Shown: one piece after another, positions 3,018-11,632 of the stretch
Layout of the letters: each line of letters starts with the position of its first letter
Position numbering within the stretch: position 1 is the first letter of the stretch
Origin: Planctomycetota bacterium
Lineage (GTDB): Bacteria > Planctomycetota > Brocadiia > SM23-32
Reading direction: 5' to 3'
DNA length: 11,632 bases
Assembly (NCBI GenBank): GCA_018400625.1
Contig: JAGYMJ010000541.1
Location: forward strand, 1 to 11,632
Translations under genes and position numbers: made by a program
Notes under the pieces: generated by a model
What the model was told of the DNA's origin: nothing
The model's input: only the letters and a program-made list of their open reading frames with translations
The model's database searches: none

Positions 3018-3356
3018 ATGGGAAAAACTGTAACCCAGAAAACAATCATTGTTTATCAAGATGAAAACGGCAATGAACCTTATACGAATTGGTTTAACGC
3101 TTTAAAAGACAAGAAGGCAAAGAGCCGCATCGAAACCCGATTAAGGCGTCTGGAGCAGGGTCTTTATGGAGACTGCGCACCTGTCGGCGAAGGGGTTTTG
3201 GAGCTGCGAATGTTTTTTGGTCCCGGATACCGGGTTTATTTTGGCGAAGACGAAAAAAACATCGTTATTTTATTATGTGGCGGTGATAAGAGAACCCAGA
3301 AACAGGACATAAAAGCCGCAAAGAAATATTGGAAGGACTATCAGATCAATGGCTAA
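3018..3356 (+). CDS. RelE/ParE-superfamily toxin, HigB-like (HI1419 type)
   Basis: This is the toxin of a type II toxin-antitoxin pair. Family members are small RelE-fold proteins, usually ribosome-dependent mRNA interferases that stop translation when free of antitoxin. The 112-residue length is typical. Conserved blocks are visible: PYTNWFNAL (21-29), the basic helix RIETRLRRLEQG (37-48), ELRMFFGPGYRVYF (62-75), and VILLCGGDKRTQKQDI (83-98) followed by AAKKYW. These match the Gp49-like 'addiction module killer protein' family (COG3657). The basic residues R64, R72 and K91 are candidate RNA-contact or catalytic positions. The ribosome binding site is weak (about ACGGAA). Its stop overlaps the antitoxin start by 8 bases, so the pair is translationally coupled in toxin-first order, as in higBA. 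No truncation is visible, so the toxin is probably functional. Confidence 0.92.
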   Translation: MGKTVTQKTIIVYQDENGNEPYTNWFNALKDKKAKSRIETRLRRLEQGLYGDCAPVGEGVLELRMFFGPGYRVYFGEDEKNIVILLCGGDKRTQKQDIKAAKKYWKDYQING

Positions 3357-3675
3357 ACGCAAATACAGAACACTTAACGAGGTGTCCGAAGAATATTACC
3401 ATAATCATCCCGATGAGATTGACGGCTATCTCGAGACCTGCTTTGAAGAATATGCAAAAGATAGTTGTACCCCGGCTTTGCTGTCATCCCTGCGAATGAT
3501 TGCCCGTGTAAAAGGCATTTCAGCAATTGCGCAAGAAACGGGCATTACCCGAAACGGGATACAAAAAGCCCTGTCTGAACAGGGAAATCCCCGGTTTGAT
3601 AATATAAATTCCATTATGAAAGCGTTGGGGTACCGCCTTAAACCTCAAAAGATAGAAGTAAACAATCTGTTATAA
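3349..3675 (+). CDS. Antitoxin with helix-turn-helix, HigA-like (HI1420 type)
   Basis: This is the antitoxin partner of the upstream toxin. It should neutralise the toxin by direct binding and repress the shared promoter. Its length is 108 residues. The N-terminal part (about 8-40, including DEIDGYLETCFEEY) probably contacts the toxin. Residues about 57-76 (ISAIAQETGITRNGIQKALS) form the helix-turn-helix, followed by the family hallmark GNPRFDNINSIMKALGYRL. This arrangement matches the probable addiction module antidote family (COG3636), the usual neighbour of HI1419-type toxins. It overlaps the toxin gene by 8 bases. The dyad at 2965-2982 is its likely operator. Confidence 0.92.
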   Translation: MAKRKYRTLNEVSEEYYHNHPDEIDGYLETCFEEYAKDSCTPALLSSLRMIARVKGISAIAQETGITRNGIQKALSEQGNPRFDNINSIMKALGYRLKPQKIEVNNLL

Positions 3676-3915: not shown

Positions 3916-6900
3916 ATGCTGAAAACCGTCAAGGACGCCTGTAAACTCCACGAATCAACGCTTGAATATCAGGTAGCCGGCGGGGTCGAAAACCTGGCCC
4001 GGGTCATCGGCGCAGCGGACGAAGGACGCGACTTTTTCGAAAAAAGCTACATGACTGCCGGCATGGAGGATCTTCTGGCGCAAGGACTGCTCCGTTTGTC
4101 GGGGCAGACGGATCAAGCATTGTTTGAATTAGCGCAGGCCATGGGCGGAGGGAAAACCCATCTGATGGCAGCCCTCGGGCTGCTGGCACGGCATCCGTCC
4201 CGGAGATCTGAGGTGCTTCCGCAGGATTTGCTGAACCAGGTCGATGACCAATCGGCCCGGGTCGCAGTATTTGACGGTCGTAGCAGCCCGGATCATTACC
4301 TGTGGGGTGATATTGCTGAGCAGATCGGCAGTGAGAAAATGATGCGTCCTTTCTGGCAAAACGGCCCCAGGGCACCCGGCAAGGATGACTGGAAAAACAT
4401 GATCGGCAATGAGCCTACCCTGCTGTTGTTTGATGAGCTTCCCCCATATTTCCTGGAGGCCAGGACCATTTCCGTCGGCAAAGGGACCATGGTTGATGTG
4501 CTGACCCGGGCGCTTTCCAACCTGTTCATCGCCGCCCTGGAACTGCCCCGATGCTGTGTGGTCCTGTCCAACCTGACAGACAGTTATCGGACCCAGGTCA
4601 GGGAAGTCCGCAAGATCGTTTCAGACATTCAGCGTGAATCCCGCCGCCAGGCACGCATTATTACACCGGTTTCCCTGGAGGGAAACGAAATATACGCCAT
4701 TTTGCGAAAGCGCCTCTTTTCGGCGCTGCCCTCGGAAGACGACATCGACGAGGTGGCTGAAGCCTACGCAGAAAGGGTCAGGATGGCAGAGGACAGTGGC
4801 TATCTGACCGCCCGGAGCTTGGAACAGGTGGCCGAAGAGGTGCGCGATACATACCCGTTCCATCCGTCTTTCAAACATCTGGTCGCCCTGTTCAAGGATA
4901 ACCCGGATTTCCGGGAAACACGCGGACTGCTCCAGTTTGCAGCACGGGTCATCCGGTCTGTCTGGCTGCGGGAAAACAACGATGTGTACCTGATCGGCAC
5001 CCAGCATCTGAACTTAAACGACACCCTGGTGGCAAACGAGGTGGGCAACATCAACCGGGCCCTGCGGCCTGCAATTACCACGGACATCGCAGATAACGGC
5101 AATGCCCACGCAGAGATCATCGATGCGGAGATAAACAGCGATGCAGGCTCCCAGGTCGCGGCCATGATTCTTTCTGCATCGCTTTCCCTGGCTGTTAAGG
5201 GGCACATGGGATTGCGCGGTGAGGAGGTCATCGAATACCTGGCTGCGCCCAACCGGAAACCGGAGGAGTTTGCCCGGGCGTTTGAGAGGCTCCGCAAGAC
5301 CGCCTGGTATCTGCATTCCGAGGGGGAGCTGTTTTATTTCAAGGATACGGAAAACCTGATCAAGCGCGTCCAAAAAGAGGCGATCTCCCTGGCCAGGGGG
5401 AAGGTGGAAAAGGCGCTTCGAAACCGGCTGGAAGGAGAGCTCGACCCCCGCTCCCGCCAGGCTTACCAGGAAGTGCTGGTCATGCCGGAGATAGGCGAAA
5501 TCAACCTCGGCTCCCATCGGGTTCTGGTCGTTGTGCTCCCTGACAACAGCACTCCGCCCGAGGAGATCGACCGATTTTACCGCTCAGTCCCGGAAAAAAA
5601 CCATCTGCTGGTGCTTTCCGGCAATGATACCCACATGGCCGGCCGGGTAGAAGAAACCCTGAGGGAACTCTATGCCGTGAATCGCATTTTTAAATCCCTC
5701 CGACCCGGTGATACGCTCTATGAGCAGGCCAGGGAAATGACAGAGCAGTGTGAAGAATCCTTCATCCAGGCCCTGCAGGGTACATACAATCGGCTTTTTT
5801 ACCCCAACGAGGACGGGCTGCAGGCGGCGACCATAGAAAACGGTCTGAAATTCGGCTCGGAAACGGAGGATACCGGTGAAAAGCAGATCGAGGCGATGCT
5901 GGCCAGCATGCGCTGTGATCACAAACTGGCCATGGATGCACTGGATGACCCTACCCCATATTTCTCAATGGCGGAACATGATCTGTGGCCCCAAAGCGAT
6001 CGGCGCACCCCATGGCGGGACATCCTGATGCGCGCCAAGAGCAACCCGGCCTGGCCCTGGATGCCCGGAAGCAGGGGGTTGGAAAAACTCAAAGACATGG
6101 CCGTTGCCCATGGGCGCTGGCGGGAAGGCGCGGACGGATACATCGAAAAAGGGCCTTTCCCTAAAAACAAGACAGAGATCAACGTGGTCGAGCAGGCCAT
6201 GAACGAAAAAGCCGAAGAGATCATTCTTTCCCTGAATCCAAAACACGCAGGCCCCGCACCAAAAGTCCATTATGCCACAACCCCGACTGTTTCCGAGTCG
6301 GATGCGGTTGCAGAGGACCTGGAAGCATTCCGGACAAAACACCCGACGCTTTATTTTTTAACCGTTGATACTACCGGCGAGCATCAAACCGGCGAACCTA
6401 CCCGCTGGGTGGCGCGAATCAAGCTCCGTCACCAGGTTCATGATTACGCCGATCACCGGGAAGTAAAGCTCCAGGCCACTCCCTCCGCAGAAATTCGCTA
6501 CACCACAGACGGAACCAATCCCAGGGAAGGGCGGATATATGAAGGGGCGGTGACGGTTGGCGATGAAAAAATCCTGCTCCAGGTTTATGCCAAAGCCGGA
6601 GAAGCCACGGGACAAAGCTCGTTTACTATCCCTGAAAAAGGTCAACAGCGCGCGGAGATCGATGACACGAAGCCTGCCCGGCTGGTCAACCAGAAGGTTC
6701 GCCTGGATACTACGGACAAGGTATTTGGCCTTATTTCCGCTTTCAAGGGCAGAAACGGCGTATATTTTCATGGTGTGTCCCTGAACATCGGAGAGGGGGA
6801 GCAGGCGGTGACCGTGCGTTTCAACGATCGGTCGGTGGACCCGGATATGATCGGCCGGGTGGTGGATTCCCTTCGGAAAACCATCGGGGAACCCGACGCC

Positions 6901-7011
6901 CTGGTCCAGGTTTCCATCCGGGACGGGGCAAGCTTTGAGACCGGCTACGACCTGAAATCATTTGCCAACCTTGCGGGTATTGATCTTCCCATAGACAAGG
7001 TGGAACAATAA
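3916..7011 (+). CDS. Anti-phage-associated DUF499 AAA-type ATPase (1031 aa)
   Basis: This is a large P-loop ATPase of the DUF499/COG1483 group, probably the motor or signalling ATPase of the operon. The family mark GGGKTH appears in AMGGGKTH at residues 75-82 (Walker A, K80). LLLFDELPPYF places Walker B at D173-E174. Conserved YPFHP (313-317) and ETRGLLQFAARV (from 334) follow, as in other DUF499 proteins. The middle (about 480-760) is helical with a second conserved region (VVLPDNSTPPEEIDRFY and following). Near residues 845-895 a short beta module with IRYTTDGTNP (860-869) resembles the chitobiase C-terminal/Fn3-associated fold. The last 110 residues are a mixed alpha/beta segment. No signal peptide or membrane segment is seen, so it is cytosolic. 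Only 3 bases separate it from the next gene. The family assignment is strong; its role in defence rests on the neighbours and on known co-occurrence. Confidence 0.9.
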   Translation: MLKTVKDACKLHESTLEYQVAGGVENLARVIGAADEGRDFFEKSYMTAGMEDLLAQGLLRLSGQTDQALFELAQAMGGGKTHLMAALGLLARHPSRRSEVLPQDLLNQVDDQSARVAVFDGRSSPDHYLWGDIAEQIGSEKMMRPFWQNGPRAPGKDDWKNMIGNEPTLLLFDELPPYFLEARTISVGKGTMVDVLTRALSNLFIAALELPRCCVVLSNLTDSYRTQVREVRKIVSDIQRESRRQARIITPVSLEGNEIYAILRKRLFSALPSEDDIDEVAEAYAERVRMAEDSGYLTARSLEQVAEEVRDTYPFHPSFKHLVALFKDNPDFRETRGLLQFAARVIRSVWLRENNDVYLIGTQHLNLNDTLVANEVGNINRALRPAITTDIADNGNAHAEIIDAEINSDAGSQVAAMILSASLSLAVKGHMGLRGEEVIEYLAAPNRKPEEFARAFERLRKTAWYLHSEGELFYFKDTENLIKRVQKEAISLARGKVEKALRNRLEGELDPRSRQAYQEVLVMPEIGEINLGSHRVLVVVLPDNSTPPEEIDRFYRSVPEKNHLLVLSGNDTHMAGRVEETLRELYAVNRIFKSLRPGDTLYEQAREMTEQCEESFIQALQGTYNRLFYPNEDGLQAATIENGLKFGSETEDTGEKQIEAMLASMRCDHKLAMDALDDPTPYFSMAEHDLWPQSDRRTPWRDILMRAKSNPAWPWMPGSRGLEKLKDMAVAHGRWREGADGYIEKGPFPKNKTEINVVEQAMNEKAEEIILSLNPKHAGPAPKVHYATTPTVSESDAVAEDLEAFRTKHPTLYFLTVDTTGEHQTGEPTRWVARIKLRHQVHDYADHREVKLQATPSAEIRYTTDGTNPREGRIYEGAVTVGDEKILLQVYAKAGEATGQSSFTIPEKGQQRAEIDDTKPARLVNQKVRLDTTDKVFGLISAFKGRNGVYFHGVSLNIGEGEQAVTVRFNDRSVDPDMIGRVVDSLRKTIGEPDALVQVSIRDGASFETGYDLKSFANLAGIDLPIDKVEQ

Positions 7012-7014
7012 AAA

Positions 7015-7644
7015 ATGGCCCGGAAATCAAATAAAACGGGCGCAACCAGGACCAATGCCCACCCCACCGTGGGCTTTGGCGTACCGGTAACCACTGCTCC
7101 GCATCACTTTATCGTCAGTATCCCCCGGGGAACCCGTCAACCGGTGCGCATCACCGAAGACCTGGGTATGCATGCCGAAGGAGAGGACAACCAGGTGCTG
7201 GACCGGGTTTTTCTGCACCGTCCTGCCTGGACCGAGATTGCCAACCCGGTCAAGCGATTGTTCAACCAGCGCTTAAAAGCCCACAACCTTGCGGTCAGCC
7301 AGTGGAAAGCCGGGGAAAACCCGGTTGACCGACTCCTGGGAAAGGAGCTGTGCGTGCTGGCCTGGGCGGTTGAAGACCTGCCCCTTGAAAAGGTGGGTGC
7401 GGCCCTGCGCAACTGGCTGGCCCTACGCCCCGAAGAACGGTGGTGGCTGTTTGGCATGACCGCAGCAGCAGCGGGTGCGCCGGAGGATAAGGGACGCGGC
7501 TGGCGCGTCGCACTTGGATATGCCCTGGGTGATACCCCGGAAAAAACCATTCGCAAGCCCAGGCGCACGGGCAATGGCAATACGAAAAAGAACAAGACCC
7601 ATGACGGCGGCCAGTTACCCATGTTCGACAAGGCACCGGAATAA
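7015..7644 (+). CDS. DUF3780-like defence-associated protein (209 aa)
   Basis: This is a small cytosolic protein of unknown biochemistry. Size, position between a DUF499 ATPase and a DUF1156 methylase, and the general sequence match the DUF3780 family found in anti-phage clusters. Visible features are GFGVPVTTAPHHFIVSIPRG near the start (about 20-40), a helical WxEIANPVKRLFNQRLK stretch (about 71-87), an acidic/aromatic block ELCVLAWAVEDL, and RPEERWWLFGMTAAAAG (about 137-153) before GWRVALGYAL. The last 30 residues are basic and low-complexity (KPRRTGNGNTKKNK), probably a disordered tail that could touch nucleic acid, ending in QLPMFDKAPE. No catalytic motif is recognisable. Its ribosome binding site (AAGGTGG, 6997-7003) lies in the end of the DUF499 gene, so the two are coupled. 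An adaptor or specificity role is a guess. Confidence 0.72.
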   Translation: MARKSNKTGATRTNAHPTVGFGVPVTTAPHHFIVSIPRGTRQPVRITEDLGMHAEGEDNQVLDRVFLHRPAWTEIANPVKRLFNQRLKAHNLAVSQWKAGENPVDRLLGKELCVLAWAVEDLPLEKVGAALRNWLALRPEERWWLFGMTAAAAGAPEDKGRGWRVALGYALGDTPEKTIRKPRRTGNGNTKKNKTHDGGQLPMFDKAPE

Positions 7645-7669
7645 ACCGAAAGGAAATCAGATACAGCGT

Positions 7670-10600
7670 ATGAATGCAACCGCTGAAAAACCGGATACAC
7701 CCCTTCAGCCCCTGGCCCTAAAAGACGCCCCCGCCCTCATCGAACGGGTTTTCCCGGCACAGAAGATTTCTGCCGAAGCGCAGAAGGAACGCAAGGCCGG
7801 TGCCGGTCAAACCCTGACTGCCCTGGGCTCATACTGGAAGGGCCGTAAGCCGCTGATCATGGTTCGCGCTATTGTTCTGGCCGGCCTGCTGCCGGTAACA
7901 GATGACCAGCAAGCAGACCTGGACATATTTGAAAAACTCATGGCCATAGACGATGCCTCCTTTGGCCGGCGGGAGCCCAGGCTTTCAGCCGGTGATGTAG
8001 CAGCCAGGGTCAAACTGGAATCTCCGTGGGATTTTTTTGACTACACCATAAAGAAGGGTCAATCCGGTGAAGCGTTGTCATCTGAAGAAATTGAGTCGCT
8101 CTCCTTTCCCATCGACCCGGAACAATATCCGGGCATGTCTATCCGGTGGAAAAGAAATATCCCGGATGAAGACAAGTGGAGACTGCTGGTACAAGCCATG
8201 CAGGACCTGCCGTATGAAGAAAAGGTCCGCCTGTCCAAAAGACCGGAAGAATGCGACCCCAATATTTTGTATGGCCCCATATGGCAGGAGGTAAACTGGC
8301 ATTTGACCCATCTTGGCATTGCAGCCAGCCGGCATGAAGACCTGGTGGAGCAGTTGGGCATTCTGCGCTACGGGCATCGGCCCCGGGTTGGCGATACATT
8401 TTGCGGTGGCGGCAGCATCCCCTTTGAAGCCGCCCGGCTTGGGTGTGATGTGTATGCCTCGGACTTAAATCCGGTGGCATGTATGCTGACCTGGGGCGCG
8501 CTGAATATTATCGGCGCTTCCCCTGAAAAGCGTGCTGAAATCGTAAAGACCCAGCAGCAGGTCGCTGAGGCTGTGGATGCCGAAATTACCGAGCTGGGCA
8601 TCGAGCACAAAAGCCGGGGAGACCGGGCCAAGGCATACCTTTACTGCCTTGAGACCCGCTGTCCCGAAACCGGCTGGATGGTTCCCATGGCCCCAAGCTG
8701 GGTGATTTCAAAGAGACGGAATGTATACGCCCGGCTGATCCCGAAGCCTGATGAAAAGCGGTTTGAAATTGAAGTGATAACCGGTGCAGGTAATGAGGAA
8801 ATGAAAGCGGCCGAACAGGGAACGGTGCAAAACGGCCAGCTTGTATATAAACTGGATGGGAAGGTATATCGCACCCCGATTCGTACGCTGCGGGGGGATT
8901 ACACGGATGAAAACGGCAATTCCCACAACCGACTCCGGCAATGGGAAAAACACGATTTCAAGCCTCGCCCGGATGATATTTTTCAGGAAAGGCTATACTG
9001 CATTCAATGGATTACAAAAGAATCGATAGGGAAATCCCGGCAGGAAACATACTTTGTGTCTGTAACAAAGGAGGACCTTGAACGTGAGAGGCAAGTTGAG
9101 CAAATTGTTGAAAAGAATCTGGCAGACTGGCAGAAGGAAGGGCTGGTTCCGGATATGGCCATTGAGCCAGGCTACAACACGGATCAGCCTATCAGAGAGC
9201 GAGGTTGGCGGTATTGGCATCAGTTGTTTATACCACGGGAGCTTCATTATCTGGGGTTCGTGAGACGGGAAATTAGCCCAGAAAATATAGTTTTTTTCCC
9301 TAAAATTTTAGATTTTTGTTCAAAGCTGGTTCAGTGGATTATGCGAAGCCTAAATTCTGCAGGGGGAACCGATTTTCTTGGACACGTTTTTTATAACCAG
9401 GCATTTAACACCTTATTTAATTGGGGACATCACTCATTTGCTGACATAAACATTCGATTTTACTTTAAATCAAACAATATTAAAAATATTCAACAAACAA
9501 TCCGGTGTCTGCCAGGGAACCAATGCAAAGAAACCTATGATATTTGGGTTACAGACCCCCCCTACGCAGACGCCATCAATTACCACGAAATCACCGAATA
9601 TTTCATCGCCTGGCTCCGCAAAAACCCACCCCCTCCTTTTGACGAATGGACATGGGACTCCCGCAGGGCTCTTGCCATCCAGGGAATCGGGGACGATTTC
9701 CGGCGCTCCATGGTGGATGCGTATAAGGCCATAGCTGATCACATGCCGGACAACGGACTGCAGTGCGTCATGTTCACCCACCAGGACACCGGGGTCTGGT
9801 CGGACATGGTATCCATCTTCTGGGCTTCGGGGCTCCGGGTGGTTGGGGCCTGGTACATTGCCACGGAAACCAGCACGGCCCTGCGCAGCGGCGGCCATGT
9901 CCAGGGCACGGTCACTCTGGTTCTGCGCAAACGGCTTCAGGAGGAAGCCGGCTTCAAGCAGCGTCTGCTTCCCAAAATCCGCAAGGAGGTTCAAGCCCAG
10001 ATCGACGCCATGATGCGGTTAAACGAGGAAGCCAGAACACATGGCAAATCCGTGTTCAATGACTCAGATCTGCAAATGGCCGGTTATGCAGCAGCCCTTA
10101 AGGTGCTGACCAACTACACTGAAGTCGACGGCCGGGATGTGACCAACCTGGCGCTGCAGCCCCGGCAAAAGGGGCAGCGGACCGTGATCGACGACATCGT
10201 GGAATACGCCTCCGAGATTGCCAACAACCTGCTGATCCCCGAACGTTTAAAAGACTTCAACCCGGATACGTGGACCGAAATATCCGGGCTTGAGCGCTTT
10301 TACCTGCGGATGCTGGCCATCGAGCAAAGCGGCGGGGCCAAGCTGGACAATTACCAGAATTTTTCCAAAGCCTTTCACGTGGACTACATGCCCCTGATGG
10401 CCTCGGTAAAGCCCAATGCCGCCAGGCTCAAGTGTGCAATGGATTTCAAGCCCCGGGAAATTGCCGGAGGGGACATCGGCGGCACCCTGCTGGGAGAGCT
10501 GCTCATGGCCATCCAGGAATTGGTTAATGACAAAGAACCCAAGGTCGTTTTCGGGCAGATACGCGCCAATCTCGATGAAGCATATTTTAAAAAGCGCCCC

Positions 10601-10711
10601 CACCTGCTGGCAATGGCCCGGTACGTCCATGACATGCTGATCAACAGGCGGCCGGAGGAAGCCCGGAAAGCTGAAATCATTGCCAACCGCATCCGCAACG
10701 AGGGTATTTAA
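7670..10711 (+). CDS. DUF1156 adenine-specific DNA methylase (COG1743 type, 1013 aa)
   Basis: This is a predicted S-adenosylmethionine-dependent DNA N6-adenine methyltransferase, the likely self-marking enzyme of the operon. The N-terminal DUF1156 segment (about 20-70) shows IERVFPAQKIS, ERKAGAGQTL and GRKPLIMVRA. SAM motif I is DTFCGGGSIPFEAA from D242, with a following acidic ASDLNP. Catalytic motif IV is TDPPYADA with D629-P-P-Y632. A degenerate zinc-ribbon-like pair, C326-x4-C331, lies between them. Motif I to motif IV spans about 390 residues, so target recognition probably sits in this insert. STALRSGGHVQGTVTLVLRKR (from about 735) closes the catalytic fold, and a helical C-terminal domain follows. 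I chose ATG 7670, behind AAAGGAA at 7649-7655, because residues align with the family from there; upstream in-frame codons overlap the DUF3780 gene and look non-native. A GC-poor block lies at about 9250-9540. Confidence 0.92.
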   Translation: MNATAEKPDTPLQPLALKDAPALIERVFPAQKISAEAQKERKAGAGQTLTALGSYWKGRKPLIMVRAIVLAGLLPVTDDQQADLDIFEKLMAIDDASFGRREPRLSAGDVAARVKLESPWDFFDYTIKKGQSGEALSSEEIESLSFPIDPEQYPGMSIRWKRNIPDEDKWRLLVQAMQDLPYEEKVRLSKRPEECDPNILYGPIWQEVNWHLTHLGIAASRHEDLVEQLGILRYGHRPRVGDTFCGGGSIPFEAARLGCDVYASDLNPVACMLTWGALNIIGASPEKRAEIVKTQQQVAEAVDAEITELGIEHKSRGDRAKAYLYCLETRCPETGWMVPMAPSWVISKRRNVYARLIPKPDEKRFEIEVITGAGNEEMKAAEQGTVQNGQLVYKLDGKVYRTPIRTLRGDYTDENGNSHNRLRQWEKHDFKPRPDDIFQERLYCIQWITKESIGKSRQETYFVSVTKEDLERERQVEQIVEKNLADWQKEGLVPDMAIEPGYNTDQPIRERGWRYWHQLFIPRELHYLGFVRREISPENIVFFPKILDFCSKLVQWIMRSLNSAGGTDFLGHVFYNQAFNTLFNWGHHSFADINIRFYFKSNNIKNIQQTIRCLPGNQCKETYDIWVTDPPYADAINYHEITEYFIAWLRKNPPPPFDEWTWDSRRALAIQGIGDDFRRSMVDAYKAIADHMPDNGLQCVMFTHQDTGVWSDMVSIFWASGLRVVGAWYIATETSTALRSGGHVQGTVTLVLRKRLQEEAGFKQRLLPKIRKEVQAQIDAMMRLNEEARTHGKSVFNDSDLQMAGYAAALKVLTNYTEVDGRDVTNLALQPRQKGQRTVIDDIVEYASEIANNLLIPERLKDFNPDTWTEISGLERFYLRMLAIEQSGGAKLDNYQNFSKAFHVDYMPLMASVKPNAARLKCAMDFKPREIAGGDIGGTLLGELLMAIQELVNDKEPKVVFGQIRANLDEAYFKKRPHLLAMARYVHDMLINRRPEEARKAEIIANRIRNEGI

Positions 10712-10713
10712 GC

Positions 10714-11632
10714 ATGGACTCGGCGGCCATTCACCGGTATTCGTCCAGAACCCACCGGCTGGACCGGACAATGCTCGCCCGGCATCTCAGGGATGCGGCC
10801 CGGTATCACCGCATCGCCGGGTATTTCACATCCTCTTTGTTTGAAATTGCGGCAGAGGATCTGGAAGGCGTCGATGACGTGCGGATCGTTTGCAACTCCG
10901 ACGTGCAGGCCGCAGACATCAAAATTGCCCGTGTGCGGGAGGCAAAGCTTCTCGGCCGGCTGAACAGCCAGTCCGTGGAGGTTGACACGCTGCTGAACAA
11001 GCCCCGCTACCAATGGCTGTATGATTTTCTCACTCGGCACCCGGACGCCATACGGGTGGCGCCGGACGAGTTCTGCGGTTTTGTTCACGGCAAGGCCGGG
11101 GTCATCTGGAAAAAGGATGGCTCCCGGGTCGGGTTTATCGGCTCCATGAACGAGACACGCTCCGGGTGGCGGAAAAATTATGAGATCCTGTGGGAAGATC
11201 AAAGCCCGAAAGGGATTGACTGGATCGAGGACGAGTTCGATGCCCTCTGGGAAAAAGCCGTTCCTCTGCCCCGGGTGATTGTCCAGGAAATCGGCCGCCG
11301 GGCCCGGCGGGTTGAAATCGGGCTGGGGGAGCAGGAAAACGAGGAAAGCGTCGCACCAGCCGCCCTGGTCGAGTCCCCCATGTACCGGGAAGGATTGTCC
11401 CTGCAGCCATGGCAGCGGGCATTTGTGACCGAATCCGTTAAACATCGGCGCTGGTTCGGGGTGGTCCGGCTGCTGTTAGCCGATGAAGTGGGCCTGGGCA
11501 AAACCCTGTCGCTGGGAACCGCCGCCCTGACCCTGGCCCTTCTGGATGCAGACAACACAAATACAAACGTCAGGCCCCGGCCCGTGGTCATACTGGCACC
11601 GGCTTCTCTTACCGAGCAGTGGCAGACCGAGA
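10714..11632 (+). CDS. SNF2/HepA-type helicase with N-terminal PLD domain (5' part, 306 aa)
   Basis: This gene is cut by the window edge; only the first 306 residues are present and the frame is open throughout. Residues about 25-170 form a phospholipase-D-like nuclease domain: HGK at 125-127, then GSMNETRSGW with G143-S144 and N146, then NYE with E157. The Asp of the classic HxK-x4-D motif is replaced (W132), as in PLD domains that use His-Lys-Asn-Glu. Residues from about 230 start a superfamily 2 helicase core: the Q-like LQPWQRAFV segment (from about 231), Walker A ADEVGLGKT at 256-264, and motif Ia VVILAPASLTEQW near the edge. DEVGLGKT is typical of SNF2/RapA-like translocases. The start follows the methylase stop by 2 bases with GAGGG at 10700-10704. 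The expected full length is near 900-1100 residues. In the operon it probably translocates on DNA and cleaves it, but nuclease activity is inferred. Confidence 0.88.
   Translation, partial: MDSAAIHRYSSRTHRLDRTMLARHLRDAARYHRIAGYFTSSLFEIAAEDLEGVDDVRIVCNSDVQAADIKIARVREAKLLGRLNSQSVEVDTLLNKPRYQWLYDFLTRHPDAIRVAPDEFCGFVHGKAGVIWKKDGSRVGFIGSMNETRSGWRKNYEILWEDQSPKGIDWIEDEFDALWEKAVPLPRVIVQEIGRRARRVEIGLGEQENEESVAPAALVESPMYREGLSLQPWQRAFVTESVKHRRWFGVVRLLLADEVGLGKTLSLGTAALTLALLDADNTNTNVRPRPVVILAPASLTEQWQTE

Follow-up and report, generated by a model that had tools for sequence, protein, structure and literature searches.

A Type-2 BREX-related operon from a Planctomycetota bacterium and the predicted sliding-clamp tether at the tail of its DUF3780 protein

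Central to this work is a predicted anti-phage operon on contig JAGYMJ010000541.1 of a Planctomycetota bacterium (assembly GCA_018400625.1), the whole of which, 11632 bases, constitutes the window analysed here. Four collinear genes on the forward strand, separated by 3, 25 and 2 bases, encode a DUF499 ATPase, a DUF3780 protein, a DUF1156 DNA methyltransferase and a PLD-SNF2 helicase (Table 1), as a preliminary description made from the sequence alone had laid them out. Its reading of a P-loop ATPase and of a methylase with intact motifs I and IV is borne out by the GGGKTH of DUF499, which is accompanied by a Walker-B-like LLLFDE, and by the DTFCGGG and DPPY of the methylase. The anti-phage association that it proposed holds as well: all four genes match anti-phage profiles of NCBIfam, three of them above the cut-off, and the suggested search against the PADLOC models agrees for all four. 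The helicase match is partial (415 bits over positions 2-296 of the 895 of NF042964) and stays under the whole-protein cut-off of 1100 because the contig end cuts the gene, which cannot be completed from a window that is the entire contig. The nuclease domain ascribed to this helicase is recognisable in part. A PLDc_2 domain spans residues 25-179, ahead of the start of SNF2, and the HxK is kept, preceding GSxNxT as it does in 72 of the 72 helicases that show GSxNxT, the window's included; the Asp of HxKx4D (11086-11109), however, is replaced by W in the window and, among the relatives shown, by W, Q or E.

Table 1. Coordinates of the features discussed, in the window and in related loci.
Feature	Position	Strand	Evidence
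DUF499 AAA+ ATPase, BrxC-like, 1031 residues	3916..7011	+	NF042962 1414 bits (cut-off 1200); PADLOC DUF499 1164 bits
Walker A GGGKTH of DUF499, residues 77-82	4144..4161	+	read in sequence
Fn3-associated / CHB_HEX_C_1 domain of DUF499, residues 850-894, before the C-terminal domain	6463..6597	+	PF13287 E 1.5e-7; PF13290 E 1.9e-7
DUF3780 protein, 209 residues	7015..7644	+	PF12635 238 bits; NF042961 262 bits (cut-off 200); PADLOC DUF3780 230 bits
QLPMF close to the C-terminus of DUF3780 (residues 200-204), predicted to bind the beta sliding clamp	7612..7626	+	sequence; fits Q-PHI-x-[LM]-[FL]
DUF1156 adenine-type DNA methyltransferase, 1013 residues	7670..10711	+	NF042963 1330 bits (cut-off 1000); PADLOC DUF1156_MTase 1333 bits; PF06634 residues 27-89
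Methylase motif I DTFCGGG, residue 242	8393..8413	+	sequence
Methylase target-recognition segment (putative), about residues 510-600	9197..9470	+	low identity to relatives, GC dip
Methylase motif IV DPPY, residue 629	9554..9565	+	sequence
PLD nuclease-SNF2 helicase, first 306 residues only	10714..11632 (contig end)	+	PF13091 E 4.9e-12; PF00176 E 6.9e-6; PADLOC PLD_Helicase 426 bits
PLD-domain HxK, here HGK at residues 125-127 with GSMNET after it	11086..11094	+	sequence
Solo DUF3780 genes of phage-like contigs, without clamp-type motif	L094 9989-10444; L123 9881-10354; L125 8555-9031; L126 2784-3458
DUF7680 genes between DUF499 and DUF1156, in the place of DUF3780 in Type-2	L100 5021-5641; L101 4007-4567; L102 4083-4592; L103 4147-4626

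Relatives were fetched as 80 genome loci, together with viral contigs and some plasmids. Of the fetched loci, 109 combine DUF3780 with one or more further core genes, and all 109 keep the order DUF499-DUF3780-methylase-helicase on one strand; all four core genes are present in 86 of these, and many relatives carry additional genes inserted between the core genes. This arrangement has already been published, in passages by Rakesh and Krishnan (January 2026, PMC12839542) on Type-2 BREX-related (BR) systems, which are composed of DUF499, DUF3780, a DUF1156 methylase and a PLD-SNF2 helicase and are predicted there, without a described experiment, to act in a restriction-modification-like manner. 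By its sequence the operon is a further member of this known type, a predicted restriction-modification-like defence, and the modification-dependent defence put forward in the preliminary description finds support in the same published arrangement and prediction. Its DUF499 protein scores above the family cut-off, an assignment by profile score and not by a clade tree; the DUF3780 gene stands alone between DUF499 and the methylase; the DUF1156 methylase has a variable segment ahead of DPPY; and the SNF2 helicase carries, as far as the contig reaches, an N-terminal PLD (HKD) domain in place of TUDOR. That the role of DUF3780 was not worked out, as had been remarked, is true, and the published passages found no homologs for it and suggested a reader of DNA modification.

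It is the tail of this DUF3780 protein that draws attention. In the window a conserved core (about residues 16-172 in the alignment) is followed by an unconserved linker, and in the relatives, too, a conserved core and a variable linker lead to a short motif that ends the protein or lies close to its C-terminus. The motif is QLPMF in the window and QLSLF or QLDLF in close relatives, and further forms recur from one listing of relatives to the next, with many TLPLF in the first, TLSLF or MSLF in the second and RQLDLF, RQLSLF or QQSLF in the third. These tails resemble the published consensus for binding to the sliding clamp, given as QL(S/D)LF in passages of PMC9690074 and revised in those of PMC13254535 to Q-PHI-x-[LM]-[FL] or Q-PHI-x-[LM]-x-[FL], where Gln is helpful and not required. 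The QLPMF of the window fits the revised form Q-PHI-x-[LM]-[FL] and not QL[SD]LF.

The motif was counted with pattern C, [QTNS][LMIPAFQ][SDPTNGA][LMI]F, after 9 of 476 DUF3780 sequences without a usable tail had been set aside. It is found in 284 of the 467 usable tails (shuffled mean 3.7, maximum 11), in 78 of 155 after clustering at 80% (shuffled maximum 6) and in 26 of 55 after clustering at 70% (shuffled maximum 2), while the strict QL[SD]LF is found in 24 of 467 (shuffled maximum 2). Since none of the sets is free of related sequences, the shuffled values should not be taken as probabilities. When one relaxed pattern (C or K) was applied to the last 20 residues of every subunit in loci holding both DUF3780 and a methylase, it matched 71 of 102 DUF3780 proteins, none of 89 methylases, none of 96 DUF499 proteins and 1 of 73 helicases; another count for DUF3780, 72 of 103, used a wider pattern than the methylase count, and 71 of 102 is the figure for the uniform pattern. 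Pattern C occurs in the last 25 residues of 2 of 709 other open reading frames of at least 150 residues. The sole methylase that bears it (1 of 95) belongs to L103, a Type-1 locus without DUF3780, and ends PQQLSLFTEEAA.

The Type-1 BR systems are described in passages of PMC12839542 as consisting of ATPase, methylase and helicase only. Methylase C-termini were compared here from 18 Type-1 loci of named plasmids, nine bacterial and nine haloarchaeal, of which the tails of L100-L105 had been viewed before any test. By relaxed patterns, a clamp-type motif ends six of the nine bacterial methylases (QLSLF, QGSLF twice, QMNLEL, QEGLF and QLELW), those of Roseomonas, Planktothrix and Streptomyces having none. 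The clamp of haloarchaea is PCNA, and the PCNA box reads Qxx[I/L]xxFF. A PCNA-like motif ends eight of the nine haloarchaeal methylases (QGSLNDF, QAALNEF twice, QTDFSDF, QTGIDDY, QSTLGEH and QTELGDH twice), with none by the relaxed pattern in Salinirubellus. As a cross-check, the clamp pattern matched none of the nine haloarchaea and the PCNA-like pattern none of the nine bacteria, with no more than 3 matches in shuffles. Of six haloarchaea fetched after the idea had arisen, four fit the earlier pattern and five the widened one, two of them sharing the same tail. The DUF1156-family methylases of viral contigs have 33 non-identical tails, of which 15 are clamp-type (shuffled mean 0.84, maximum 5), 9 of 20 where DUF499 was found and 6 of 13 where it was not, and no DUF3780 was found in those loci; this set was scored with the clamp pattern already widened, and the matching L142 shares its contig with L129, whose tail had been seen earlier. 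Since the motif lies on DUF3780 in Type-2 and on the methylase in Type-1, BR systems may dock on the replication clamp, and the simplest reading of these sequences would be that a single link to the sliding clamp of the host is required in every system. It may be added that a small gene lies directly upstream of the methylase in 13 of the 18 Type-1 loci, and that all four of those scanned match DUF7680 (Table 1). A homology between DUF3780 and DUF7680, suggested by eye, was set aside when a profile comparison, with four DUF7680 rows only, returned a probability of 0.2%.

A second line of evidence concerns the recognition of the DNA site. Compared with five relatives, the window methylase falls to 23-47% identity in 60-residue windows over residues 511-630, against 60-97% in most others, and dips once more, though less deeply, to 42-62% in the windows around residues 91-180; the GC content at 9197-9470 is 0.387, compared with 0.536 and 0.557 on the flanks. 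Target-recognition domains in general are noted in passages of PMC12839542 to diverge fast. Exchange was examined among 61 complete operons, which yield 39 pairs with DUF3780 proteins at least 90% identical. In 30 of these close pairs the stretch ahead of DPPY is less than 60% identical (36-57%), while DUF499 and the helicase are at least 85% identical; in the remaining nine the segment is 78-100% identical. The pairs are not independent, the 30 involving 30 distinct operons. Between L045 and L047, for instance, DUF3780 and DUF499 are each 99% identical, the helicase 98% and the segment 55%. Because the segment alone is exchanged between near-identical operons, the DNA site is most simply taken to be read by this segment of the methylase, and no other subunit would have to change along with it. 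The exchange favours a methylase that would also guide restriction, and speaks against DUF3780, or the variable end of DUF499, acting as a site-specific reader. Specificity, it suggests, resides in a single domain that evolution alters while the other subunits stay as they are. Segment exchange within BR operons is absent from the passages of PMC12839542 drawn on here, and no wider literature search was made.

Taken together, we consider the best explanation, with a probability of roughly two in three, to be a Type-2 BR defence of the restriction-modification-like kind in which the tail of DUF3780 serves as a predicted tether to the DnaN sliding clamp. Sliding clamps recruit proteins to freshly replicated DNA. 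The methylase alone would choose the DNA site and mark self DNA, DUF499 would provide an ATP-driven scaffold, and the PLD-helicase would move along and cut unmarked DNA. The conserved core of DUF3780 would bind the complex of methylase and DUF499, while its QLPMF-type C-terminal peptide is predicted to plug into DnaN, so that the complex would ride newly made DNA, self DNA being re-marked behind the fork and unmarked replicating phage DNA being met at the fork. In Type-1 systems the methylase itself would carry the clamp peptide, of PCNA type in haloarchaea. Here, as in the passages of PMC12839542, that the methylase protects self DNA is an inference, and either re-marking or attack may be the main use of clamp docking. 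The broader proposition, to which we give somewhat better than even odds, is that BR defence is coupled to replication, with one subunit per system bearing a predicted peptide for the host clamp (the beta-clamp in bacteria, PCNA in haloarchaea), with marking and surveillance taking place on new DNA, and with solo phage DUF3780 proteins lacking the peptide perhaps acting as decoys. Clamp, PCNA, DnaN and replisome find no mention in the main text of PMC12839542, and the literature listings hold no link of the sliding clamp with restriction-modification, anti-phage defence or BREX; one entry concerns Cas1-Cas2 with replication and repair.

If correct, a tail that docks on the clamp would give DUF3780, to which no function had been assigned before, a concrete job. 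Passages of PMC12839542 place DUF499-centred systems in 3592 taxa, and a widespread family would thus police DNA at the replication fork; the tether would also explain how self DNA could be re-marked after each round of replication and how phage DNA is detected while it replicates.

Several observations weigh against the clamp tether. Strict published forms beginning with Gln are found in only 68 of 476 DUF3780 proteins, some DUF3780 proteins have no such tail, the L119 group ends in QMTLDQFL with unusual spacing, and pattern C was defined after the first tails had been viewed. The haloarchaeal boxes have one aromatic residue, or His in three of eight, and never the published FF; leaving out those with His, the PCNA-like count is five of nine. 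A narrower clamp pattern, Q[LIVAMPQ].[LM][FL], matched one of the nine bacterial Type-1 methylases (QLSLF) and was widened to reach six after QGSLF (twice), QEGLF, QLELW and QMNLEL had been seen, just as the first PCNA pattern matched seven of nine haloarchaea and reached eight when Phe was allowed at the inner position for L132. Archaeal Type-2 DUF3780 proteins, which under the clamp tether would be expected to carry a PCNA box, were not found in plasmid searches or among the names shown in the matches listed, most of which are unnamed; L119, once considered as archaeal from its QMTLDQFL, was dropped, its neighbours looking bacterial or phage by eye. Thr, moreover, is frequently the first residue (in 36 of 64 DUF3780 tails with the motif), and the motif could dock another protein.

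That last thought is taken furthest by the idea that the C-terminal LF motif docks on another subunit of the same complex. The common replacement of Gln by Thr would suit it, as would the confinement of the motif to one subunit in Type-2 loci, which is what one expects of an internal docking peptide. However, the motif resembles the consensus of clamp partners in the passages of PMC9690074 and PMC13254535, and the Type-1 systems carry it on another subunit, in a PCNA-like form in haloarchaea; a motif that tracks the clamp type of the host is not expected of an internal dock, which we regard as unlikely. The published suggestion that DUF3780 reads DNA modification, replacing the TUDOR missing from Type-2 helicases, draws strength from fusions of some DUF3780 proteins with ASCH/PUA or RAMA domains, as stated in passages of PMC12839542; with a site-specific reader disfavoured by the segment exchange, we hold it to be rather improbable. 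Finally, all the gene matches and the passages of PMC12839542 would be compatible with a plain Type-2 system as published, its tail a neutral relic. Against this, the motif is kept across the 70% clusters at a frequency far above the shuffled maximum while the linker that precedes it varies, and we consider a relic very unlikely.

Seven viral-contig loci hold DUF3780 without any other core gene in the fetched stretch (L094, L095, L123, L124, L125, L126 and L128; those in phage-like contigs are placed in Table 1). Five of the seven proteins lack a tail of at least 10 residues, and the tails of L095 and L126 are without the motif. The gene in L094 adjoins terminase, portal and head protease genes; L123 has tape-measure, Sak4-like and exonuclease genes as neighbours, an exonuclease gene is also present in L125, and L126 gave a match to a primase/helicase and a weak one to a terminase. 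L124, which begins near a contig end, has a ParB-like methyltransferase match, L095 has DNA-binding matches only, and neither of the two proteins tried in L128 gave a match. It is possible that such solo proteins act as decoys that block the coupling to the clamp. In Proteus phage vB_PvuS_Pm34 (L096 11428-12516), the last part of DUF499 lies with DUF3780 downstream of the lysis genes, and the annotation of the stretches viewed (1-13620 and 26000-39558) shows no additional core gene. This pair was considered as a designed decoy and is read as a leftover instead, because similarity extends in frame ahead of the start codon of the DUF499 part.

The surroundings of the operon differ in composition, the GC content being 0.47-0.59 across the operon (mostly about 0.56, in 1000-base windows) and 0.36-0.42 in the DNA upstream, except for the first 1000 bases at 0.47. 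The nearest named DUF3780 relatives among the matches listed are labelled Desulfobacteraceae. The system is patchy in the window's wider kin, since among 58 genomes only that of the window carries DUF3780 above the family cut-off, with one further weak match below it. Upstream, the AT-rich DNA holds a ParA/MinD-like ATPase gene (1808-2839; AAA_31, E 3e-28), preceded by two open reading frames (402-1001 and 1380-1715) without Pfam, PADLOC or NCBIfam match, in which the HEPN-like Rx4H strings RCGLFH and RNFIAH were noted by eye, and a toxin-antitoxin pair of the HI1419/HI1420 type (3018-3675; TIGR02683, TIGR02684) lies just before the operon. As parts of the system these genes were rejected, only ParA having a relative in L001-L096, a single one of 29% identity in L040, downstream of a methylase. 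In other loci, genes which by eye we take to be DarT- and DarG-like stand between DUF3780 and the methylase (L057 10606-12323, L068, L072, L083 and others), and VapC-, HEPN- or NYN-like inserts occur there or ahead of the helicase. Annotated toxin-antitoxin genes (VapC with antitoxin, HicAB) lie beside or inside the plasmid DUF1156 loci L136 (4501-5144), L140 (4819-5220), L141 (4378-5114) and L110 (7130-7866).

It remains to set the operon beside the systems known so far. With PbeA of the Dnd/Pbe systems, the helicase shares the order of PLD then helicase, at 89 bits over about 300 residues compared with 426 for PLD_Helicase, and no phosphorothioation genes are found among the window's open reading frames scanned. 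BREX likewise combines a BrxC-like ATPase with a methylase and a helicase, as argued in passages of PMC12839542; PglZ and BrxL gave no match among the nine open reading frames scanned in a window that ends inside the helicase. The closeness to Hma (helicase-methylase-ATPase) proposed in the preliminary description stands in the sense of a sister group only, since HmaC, HmaB and HmaA score 157, 78 and 16 bits, against 1164, 1333 and 426 for the other PADLOC models; passages of PMC12839542 merge Hma into the DUF499-centred systems. Type-1 BR or Hma shares DUF499, the DUF1156 methylase and the SNF2 helicase with the window, but has no DUF3780 and bears a clamp- or PCNA-like motif on the methylase instead. 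Closest of all are the published Type-2 BR systems. The clamp-type tail of the window's DUF3780 is not in that main text by term search, and in gene content, with a DUF499 protein carrying an Fn3-like domain, a standalone DUF3780, a DUF1156 methylase and an N-terminal PLD (HKD)-SNF2 helicase, the operon agrees with the passages on Type-2 in PMC12839542 without a difference.

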